Shown piece after piece: positions 24,373 through 28,445 of a stretch of DNA of 64,000 nucleotides. Position 1 is the first letter of the stretch, and every line of letters starts with the position of its first letter. The DNA comes from Hydra vulgaris (lineage: Eukaryota; Cnidaria; Hydrozoa; Anthoathecata; Hydridae), in contig NC_088926.1 of the NCBI RefSeq assembly GCF_038396675.1, positions 4,377,501-4,441,500 on the forward strand, in the 5' to 3' direction. Under the pieces are notes generated by a model. That model was given only the letters and a program-made list of their open reading frames with translations, had not been told where the DNA came from and searched no databases. The position numbers and the translations under genes are program-made.

Positions 24373-25249
24373 CCAAAATATGCTGATCTTTTAAGTGTAA
24401 GAATATCTTTTTCTAAATGTGTAAAATATGTGTTTTTTAAGTATGTCACTAATAAATTTTTGTAATTATTATTGTAATTATTTAAAAAAAAAGCTTTGGT
24501 TAATGGGCCCTAATTGTTCTATGGGCCCTGGAGCAGGGCACATGGGGGCAAAATGTTTTGAATGCCGATGCCAATAGAGAGGCGGAAGCCAATGGTGGCT
24601 GCTTCCAGAAGAAATTTTGGAAGCAATATCATTTGGAGGCCATCTCCAATAGCTTCTGCCTCCCACCTGTCTGCGGCCGCTAGGCGGAAGGCGGAAATAT
24701 TTGCCTCCCACCAGCGCACAGTGACTAAAAGTGAAGAAAAGGCGGCAAAAATTATATAACCATTGCATTTTAATATGTATTAAATGAATAGTTATTTTTT
24801 TTTTGTCTGAAAATCAATTATGTGATTTTAAGTTATTTTTACGCGCAACAACCAACAAAACGTGCGCGTATCTAAAAGACACGCACGTATGAAATTTTAC
24901 ACGCGCAAGCAGACTTTTTTTTATTTTTACTTCTCAAATCAAGTAATAGTTTGCATAATACATAATTCGCTTTTAAATCTCTTTTTAACTCACTCCAACT
25001 TGTAATCAGGCGTGATCACACAGAACACTACCATCCAAATTTAAGTCATAAATATTACCGGTCCCCTCCCCTTTTGCTAAAAACAATTGAAAGAATTTTC
25101 AAAAAAAAAAAATAATTTAGTCATCAACAAAGAGTATATAACAGAATGCTCTGAGCATTACTATTATAACTATTGCAAATTTTAATTCATAGAAAAATTT
25201 AATTTTTGATGGCAAATTTAACTATAAATAAAAAATTTCACAAAAGAAT

Positions 25250-27295
25250 CACGACTGTTTAAGAAGAAAAAGAACTTCTACTGAAAGCAATTTCCCATTT
25301 TCACATCTATGGTTAGTGAATTGGATGCTCGATATAACTGGATCACTCCTTACCATAAGATAGTTAAACTGGTTTTTCATAACATTTATCCTTGAAATTT
25401 TGCATGAATGGTTTAATCTTACATTTCTAATCTCTTTGTTAAGAGCCTATAGTGATTCTTCTGAATAAACTCCAATGTGAAGTTCTAATGCAGCGGCAAT
25501 CTGTAAACCACGTTCTAAAAGTTTGTGAACGCTTGGAGGAATAACATACCAATTATATTCAAAAAATTTTTTATCTGTTGTATCATTATAATAATTTTGA
25601 AAAGAGCTTGGGATCTAAATCATATCCTGAACAAACTGCTTTTAAAATTGCTTCAAGTCTAGAAATGATGTCAACATCTACACCAGTTATCTCAGAGAAA
25701 GTATTCGATTCCTCAAAGACTCTTCTGGCAGTATTACCATCATTAGTGTTTCCAAAACCTTGTTTTGGCATGTCAACAATAAGACTTAGTTCTTCCCTAA
25801 ACTTTTTTTGGATAAATGCTTTTCTTTCTTTAACTGATTCTTTCTGCTCAGAGGTTTTAGCATAAAATGACTTAATTTTCAATTTATATCCAAGATGAAG
25901 AATGTACTCAAAGCATCTTATTCAAAGGTGAAGAGGTGAAAGGCCAAAAGATAAAGCTTCTTTATTGACAGGTTTAGATCTAATCAATTTAATGTCATTC
26001 ATCTCTGTTGGCTTTGCTGAACATGCATTACAGCTTTGAGAAGAGGTAGTACTTGTCAGTGCATTAACAACTTTTCCATCAAACATAGTCAAATCCAAAT
26101 TATACTTTATGATTGCTGTCATCATAGATGAATCAGCCGGTTCTGACTCTAAACTTACTACAAATGGTTCAAGTTTCTGAATCTCAATTCGTAATCGTTC
26201 TTCTCCTTCTTTAATTAGCATATCTGTTTCCTTTTTGTACTGCAAACATACTGGTCTGCAGAAATGTGTACTAGATGGTTTTTTGTTGTACCATATCACT
26301 GTGTCATTAGCATTTAAAATTAAATTAAATTAATTATTAATAAATTAAATTAAATTAAATATTTTTGTTTATACAGACTCTGGCTAGACGCTCTATCAAA
26401 ACCGCCTTTGAAATACATCATTCCATGTTGATTGATATCTTTAACCGATAATTCAGAAAATATTTTGTTGCAACTATTTGGACTCAAGATTCTACACAGT
26501 GTGTGATTAAAAAGAGATTGAAGGGAGCAAACTGCAGATGTTTCTGAAAAAGTCATATATCAGGATAGCATTTCTTTTTTTCAGTTAAAATTTTATGAAG
26601 AGATGGATAGATGTTTGCATTTTGTAATAAGGAGCTATTTCTGATTATCTAATTCATCGGACAGATCACATTGAATTTTTAGGCTGAGAGCATCTTCAAC
26701 TTTCATTTTAACAGGTTCAAGCAAAGACATGTTTTTCCTAATTTTATTTGCTTTATCTGGGTCCAAAGCCTTCTTTACTATAAAAATAAAATTGTTTCAA
26801 TTAATGTTGGATTCAGTTGCTGGACTTTTTAAAGAAGCTAAGGCCAGTGCTTCATGATTGTTTTCAGCTAAATGGGCAACTTTAGCTCTTTTGCTTCTTT
26901 CACCAAGATTTTCCCAAACTTTATTTTTTCTACCTGGACCTTCTTTAAATTTAATTCTTTTAACAAGATCGGGGAAAAACTCCTCCTGTAAATAGAAACT
27001 TAATTAAATAGAATGACTGCATAAAGAAAATTATTAACAAATAACTCTGTTTCTTTACCTGCAGTCAAACATCTTTTAAAATCAATCTGTCATAGTTTCT
27101 ATTATGCTTATCTAACTTAGCTCCCACTTTTGCTTTAAAAACAGACAACTTATTCTTTAAGTTGGTAAGCTCTGATTTATCGAAGTCATCTTCATGAAGG
27201 TTATAAACATTTAAAACTTTTTTAAACAAAGATTCAAGCAGATTAACTTTATTGAAACCTAGCTCTTTAATTTTTCGAAGATATATTATCTATAA
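25250..27295 (-). pseudogene. Transib/RAG1-like transposase, decayed, with one intron
   Basis: On the minus strand, exon 1 (about 27295-27059) encodes KIKELGFNKVNLLESLFKK. A 73 bp GT-AG intron follows (27058-26986), then exon 2 starts EEFFPDLVKRIKFK. Candidate catalytic acids: Asp in MYFKGGFDRASSQSLYKQK, Asp in LTMFDGKVVNAL (followed by a CNACSA zinc-type motif), and Glu in GVYSEESL*ALNKEIRNVR near the C-terminus. Between them lie LSFGLSPLHL*IRCFEYILH and MPKQGFGNTNDGNTARRVF, blocks I associate with the Transib/RAG1 family. Several stops and frame changes are present (about 27065, 26580, 26340, 25919, 25583, 25450), so it is inactive. Family membership rests on remembered motif patterns plus the element's ends and target site. 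Confidence 0.75.
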
Positions 27296-27377
27296 GATAA
27301 CACACAAAAGTTATCAATAGTTTAACAATCTTGTCATTTACATTATAGCTTAACAGCTACAAGTATTTTGAAAATCC

Positions 27378-27558
27378 ATATATATATATATATATATATA
27401 TATATATATATATATATATATATATATATATATATATATATATATATATATATATATATATATATATATATGTATATATATATATATATGTATATGTATA
27501 TATATATATATATATATATATATATATATATATATATATATATATATATATATATACG
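27378..27558. repeat. (TA)n array
   Basis: Pure TA with a few TGTA steps near 27470-27495, located near the 5' end of the Transib gene. At 27571-27655 there is a short inverted repeat around ATCAAATTTTTTTA. Confidence 0.95.
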
Positions 27559-28445
27559 AGCTATAAAAAAATTACTTATCAAATTTTTTTATATTTTACA
27601 CTGTGTTTTTATCTCTAAAGACTCATCAAGATTAAAAAAATTTGATAAGTGATTTTCTGCTAATTTATAACAGCTCTGTTTTTTTTAAAAACATTGAGCA
27701 CTCTATTTTGTAGCAACATTTTTGTTCTTGTACCACAAATAATGTGTTACTAATAAAAAAAAAAATTTTTTCTAATATTATTCTTCATGCTGAGTAATAG
27801 CTTAAACCTAATAATCTTTAGAAAAAAATCATTTATTTACATTGTGAATTGACACAATTTTAATAAATTAATAAAAAATACTAACACTTTAACTACTGTC
27901 TCCATAAAATAAATTTCTAAAAATGATATGACTATTTTATCGAACATTTCCGTTTTTTTCCGTCATAAAAAAAACATCAATAAAGTGCTTCAAATTGATA
28001 CGTAACCTTGCAATGGCTTCAAAAAAAGTTTTAAATTGTCATGCATCTGGCCTTACCATCATTATAAGTTATTTGTATTTAAAAACTAAAGACTTTATTT
28101 TCTTTTCTTTTTTGCCACTTTTTAAGGATTTTGAGCCACTGTGCGGTGGATATAATGAAAAAATAATTGCACGTTTGTCTTTAAGTTAACGAGCAATTAA
28201 AATATTAACTGAAAACAAATGTTAAATATTTGACATCAAAGTTTTGTTTTATATGATTTGTTGACTATTTAAAAAAAATTTTGAAAAAAAAGTTATGATT
28301 TTGTCAGAGCGGTTGTTTTTCTACGACTATCGAATAAATTTTTAACTTCTAAACGTTTTAAACTTTTAATCACTTAAAACTTTAAAACGTGTAAAAGTAG
28401 ATGAGTCTATATTTTTAAACGTTCTAAAAGTATAGAGTAAAATAT

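Follow-up and report, generated by a model that had tools for sequence, protein, structure and literature searches.

A decayed Transib transposon in a hAT-type foldback element of Hydra vulgaris, with the filled and the unfilled target site in opposite arms

A 64,000-nucleotide stretch of the Hydra vulgaris genome (RefSeq assembly GCF_038396675.1, contig NC_088926.1, positions 4,377,501 to 4,441,500; hereafter the window) contains a foldback element with one interrupted and one continuous arm. Did a Transib transposon enter the interrupted arm by transposition, with the opposite arm preserving the same site unfilled? The initial annotation, made from the letters alone, answered yes: it described inverted ends led by CACAGTG around a RAG1/Transib-like pseudogene, and flanks that rejoin at one 5-mer to recreate the other arm. 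It explained the two different flanking 5-mers as decayed copies of CGGCG, a target of CGNCG type. The transposase core of RAG1–RAG2 and ProtoRAG is related to the Transib transposase. The features discussed below are collected in Table 1.

Table 1. Features of the Transib copy and of the foldback element, in window positions.
Feature	Positions	Strand	Basis or remark
Decayed Transib transposon copy, end to end	24717–28143	-	End motifs; genomic copies terminate at the same bases
Terminal inverted repeat at the transposase 3′ side	24717–24751	+	CACAGTG, 23-nt spacer (counted by eye), A-rich stretch
Terminal inverted repeat at the transposase 5′ side	28109–28143	-	CACAGTG, 23-nt spacer (counted by eye), A-rich stretch
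Transposase pseudogene	25249–27289	-	Similarity to 6pqn and to a Hydra protein
AAATT tandem repeat	26317–26360	.	Replaces about 25 transposase codons
Likely intron, GT...AG (by eye)	26986–27058	-	Exon join fits the continuous Hydra protein P0001
AT microsatellite within the Transib copy	27378–27556	.	
hAT-type foldback	24543–29486	.	First ~154 bp missing; right end at ~29485–29486
Foldback left arm, outer part	24543–24716	+	
Foldback left arm, inner part	28149–28262	+	Severed by the Transib
Foldback right arm	29033–29486	-	Unfilled
Target-site duplication, left copy	24712–24716	+	CAGCG
Target-site duplication, right copy	28144–28148	+	CGGTG
Empty target site in the foldback right arm	29138–29142	-	CGTCG

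Ends and transposase of the Transib copy

The two CACAGTG heptamers face inward (24717–24723 on the plus strand, 28137–28143 on the minus strand), and a comparison of the terminal 35 nt on either side gives 26 of 35 identities, which confirms the inverted ends of the initial annotation. Among 20,000 random 35-mer pairs drawn outside microsatellites none reached even 24 identities, and nine of 20,000 did so when microsatellites were allowed. The heptamer by itself is little proof, since it occurs seven times in the window against 2.8 expected. The combination of a CAC...G heptamer, a spacer and an A-rich stretch is that of Transib-type ends. Spacers of 23 nt at both ends differ from the symmetric spacers of 20–22 nt given for Transibs in the available part of PMC8355894, where asymmetric ones measure 12 or 23 (plus or minus 1) nt, the start of the A-rich stretch being a matter of choice.

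Between these ends, a transposase can be read on the minus strand through four in-frame stops and four frame changes (by eye). Pfam searches with eight pieces of this reading gave nothing above the cut-offs and two weak matches below them, and the assignment to Transib is based on a solved structure and a protein search. The structure, 6pqn, is labelled in its database entry as a DNA-mediated transposase, and we take it to be Helicoverpa zea Transib (HzTransib). It matches a 111-residue piece of the pseudogene with an E-value of 9.1e-24, and the read-through (pieces joined with X) with 1.5e-72 across chain residues 39–459. Conserved blocks of the pseudogene, which may hold the catalytic D, D and E, align to 6pqn. 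LOC105850829 of H. vulgaris (P0001, 671 aa), the best of 139 protein matches (120 of them listed), is 85% identical to the pseudogene across the whole query. The minus-strand reading, for which a Transib/RAG1 comparison had been proposed as a check, is thus a pseudogene of a Transib transposase with the RAG1-like core.

The copy resembles the Transib superfamily (HzTransib, LOC105850829) in about 420 residues of transposase, the heptamer–spacer–A-rich ends, the 5-bp duplication and the CGNCG target, and differs in being broken. With the V(D)J signals of the RAG1–RAG2/ProtoRAG system, whose core is described as related to the Transib transposase in the accessible text of PMC4411706, it has the CACAGTG heptamer and a 23-nt spacer in common; however, both of its spacers measure 23 nt, instead of forming a 12/23 pair. 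It may also differ from that system in lacking a RAG2-like neighbour of the transposase gene: leaving aside microsatellite frames and frames that overlap the transposase or the borders, the open reading frame list for 24717–28143 has no second long frame, although a decayed gene could escape such a list.

The foldback arms and their target site

The right end of the foldback reads CAACTCTG, and 35 of the 40 scored arm rows (window included) stop at positions 452–458 of the 458-base query. The left end reads CAGTGTTGATAA in four of the 112 loci examined (L008, L101, L102 and L104); it begins differently from the right end, and the right-end sequence used as a probe for it found it in none of 14 stretches of 2.6 kb. 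The window's foldback begins at element position ~155 and has thus lost its left terminus. Duplications of 8 bp were counted by eye at the four loci with both ends: two are perfect (CATAATGT/CATAATGT and AGTACATA/AGTACATA), one matches at seven of eight positions (TTTTTCAA/TTTTTGAA), and that of L008 is weak (five of eight; GTACCAAT/ATACAAAC). Duplications of 8 bp together with CAGNG ends are the mark of hAT-type elements. The foldback, with ends CAGTG/CAGAG, shares both features with the hAT superfamily and is classed as hAT-type on this basis. The two copies with perfect duplications measure only ~1.46–1.47 kb and have long inverted arms, suggesting that they are probably non-autonomous.

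To compare the filled and the unfilled arm, the flanks of the Transib were joined and aligned to the complement of the right arm, with offsets from -12 to +15 scored. The best score, 311, was obtained with one 5-mer dropped (either one), against 302 with both kept, and the alignment is gapless at the join. The flanks do rejoin at a single 5-mer to recreate the right arm, and the window holds both the filled and the empty site, as had been claimed. Against the unfilled paralogue L008, the joined flanks scored 489 with five bases dropped, 481 with none and 493 with seven.

The window's two pentamers are identical at only three of five bases. CGGCG, CAGCG, CGGTG and CAGTG would each have to change twice to give this pair, so parsimony alone does not favour CGGCG as the ancestor; what favours it are the relatives and CpG mutation. 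The right arm, searched against the genome, gave 520 candidate places at first look, of which 40 were scored. We compared 22 unfilled copies: the window's right arm, L008 from a genome-wide sample of 18 stretches, and 20 that were read among the other 39 scored. These 20 were selected as unbroken matches, so their unfilled state is a product of the selection; they inform on the ancestral bases and not on how frequently the site is filled. The pentamer is gapless in all 22, reads exactly CGGCG in 12 and otherwise in 10, and has the per-position majority C (18), G (20), G (20), C (22), G (18). L008 has CGGCG at the unfilled site of its left arm; read by eye, the left-arm site is CGGCG in L102 and CTGCA in L104, neither of these left arms being counted in the 22. 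The CGGCG ancestor proposed for both 5-mers is thus well supported by the relatives, and CGTCG in the right arm is itself a change, since position 3 is G in 20 of the 22.

The 39 other full arm rows are 82–89% identical to the window's arm, and the other Transib rows 81–94% identical to the window's Transib, ranges that would fit a foldback older than the Transib it holds. The foldback copy in L008 (4487–7821 of G000:C5:5000001-5010000) carries in its right arm a truncated Transib of a second subfamily, 66% identical in DNA to the window's over 831 nt and ending at ~7658 (by eye).

The window holds further repeats and frames. To the left of the foldback lies a DUF4371 frame (22182–23255, minus strand) with flanking unassigned frames at 21384–22178 and 23259–23774, and another DUF4371 frame occupies 62467–63714; we take both to be hAT-like. 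A small palindrome at 24137–24371, with 34-nt arms that are 97% complementary, is perhaps a MITE. Two other transposase frames, DDE_3 (7820–8413, minus strand) and DDE_Tnp_4 (55812–56756, plus strand), are presumably Tc1-like and Harbinger-like, respectively. An exon at 38048–38443 (plus strand) looks host-like; it has both a LIM domain and a nebulin repeat and is presumably LASP-like. An open frame of 1204 codons (9569–13183, plus strand) has no Pfam match at E 0.001, and a 42-nt unit is repeated four times in tandem, nearly identically, at 34043–34210 (counted by eye).

Target choice of the Transib family

A family search with 24717–27350 gave 444 candidates, of which 40 were scored, and 64 match rows, many of them beginning at CACAGTG. 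Of 28 stretches retrieved to read left ends, 27 were used; the 29 retrieved for right ends yielded 14. The left end L069 was dropped as too diverged, and L072, matched only inside the end, was left uncounted; eight of the first 20 right-end stretches had no end, some with other sequence inserted in the Transib (by eye), and six of nine later ones gave no match. The copies do not extend beyond CACAGTG, just as the initial annotation expected of true termini: the 27 left and 14 right readable flanks differ from one another (by eye), with the exception of L050 and L051, which have a common right flank.

End-pattern searches including the preceding pentamer returned 25 left ends (window absent) and 38 right ends (window included); these patterns require C or T as the first base, a bias confined to position 1. 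Among the pentamer rows, 11 left and two right coordinates were set by hand, the two right ones only roughly, the pentamers of L025 and L053 were read by eye, and an inverted pair on C8 is counted twice. On the left side 32 of 36 pentamers are at most one base away from CGNCG, and on the right side 33 of 40 (window included in both), against 0.9% of background pentamers in 264 kb; exact CGNCG is found in 14 of 36 and 10 of 40. Targeting of CGNCG-type 5-mers, named in the initial annotation, is borne out by these counts, and the 5-bp duplication of this type is that of a Transib. CGNCG is also the published Transib target (PMC4735498 and PMC5704228, in their available portions).

Twenty-three copies, the window's among them, were read at both ends. 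Nine have perfect 5-bp duplications, and the free middle base is common to both pentamers in 20; of the three pairs without a common middle base, one has a single identity. Over all pairs 91 of 115 positions are identical, and none of 20,000 re-pairings did as well on the total or the middle-base measure. In six of the nine perfect pairs the two pentamers deviate from CGNCG by an identical base (CGATG, CGGTG in two pairs, CAACG, CGTTG and CAGCG), which suggests that some CANCG and CGNTG sites were probably original targets rather than products of decay. C-R-N-Y-G may describe the target better, CGNCG being its commonest form; the wider pattern fits the pentamer at 26 of 36 left ends and at 22 of 40 right ends. 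For the proposed decay of the window's duplication, the CGGCG ancestor stands, but the perfect pairs indicate that an off-CGNCG base is not always decay.

Two further ideas about the target were rejected. Heavier CpG decay at inner than at outer bases was seen at left ends (16 versus 5, p 0.027), and the idea was dropped because right ends show no such excess (15 versus 13, p 0.85). A seven-base target, CCGNCGG, was sought by eye, and the other copies have no fixed bases outside the five. For hopper and transib2, two elements of flies, a 5-bp duplication is described together with the motif CCANTGG (PMC3276498).

Two inverted copies of the family at G000:C8:1474187-1477757 and 1483865-1487430 have a common right flank, and one looks duplicated from the other. 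Three copies on G000:C4, at ~24.38, 24.51 and 24.58 Mb, have near-equal scores and break points and are likely one copy spread by segmental duplication.

Origin of the arrangement and its meaning

We estimate a probability of about 97% that a Transib transposed into CGGCG in the arm of a pre-existing hAT-type foldback and then decayed. The foldback would already have been present in the genome when the Transib moved into its left arm by cut-and-paste, with duplication of 5 bp. Each duplicate pentamer would then have taken one CpG transition, giving CAGCG on one side and CGGTG on the other; the transposase would later have gained its stops, frame changes and repeat expansion, and the foldback would have lost its left end. 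The ends, the pseudogene, the 5-bp step, the unfilled sites and the target of the family are direct observations; the sequence in which these events took place, the way in which the bases changed and the role of a Transib transposase as the agent are inferred.

Recombination or gene conversion between foldback copies could instead have carried the Transib to this place, in a family that is large enough to recombine (520 candidate places, 40 scored). Yet a comparison of 40 Transib stretches (L022–L061) with the arms revealed no second foldback carrying this Transib, and a transfer still presupposes an original insertion at such a site, so that we regard this origin as very improbable. Least credible of all is that the Transib was an original internal part of the foldback, since lost from the other arm: the L008 foldback likewise has Transib-like coding sequence between its arms, but this belongs to another subfamily and lies at another place, the left arm of L008 is unfilled, each of the 40 arm rows scored continues across the site (in a scoring of unbroken matches that favours unfilled copies), and the arms matched none of the 40 end stretches L022–L061.

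Transposition into the arm, as we prefer to read the locus, raises a broader possibility. Since the family seeks CGNCG in a genome of ~29% G+C (the window's value), the arms of this large hAT foldback family, which are rich in G+C, might serve it as landing pads. The Transib of another subfamily in L008 is the one hint in this direction. The Transib end stretches L022–L061, 40 in number, speak against it, since not one of them lies in such an arm, and we consider the idea improbable. If it were true, many filled and empty pairs would exist, and Transib target choice and CpG decay could be dated against each other.

Transibs in Hydra are already in print (PMC12220107, PMC9435367 and PMC4411706, in the sections available), and CMC-Transib is listed among the putatively active elements of the H. 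vulgaris AEP genome in the available text of PMC12220107. With the kind of element and CGNCG targeting likewise published, the locus adds no new mechanism; ordinary transposition by a member of an established superfamily, in a host already documented to carry Transibs, is very well supported. Its value is that of a single old transposition event of textbook quality, together with a target of the Hydra Transib family fixed from dozens of copies.
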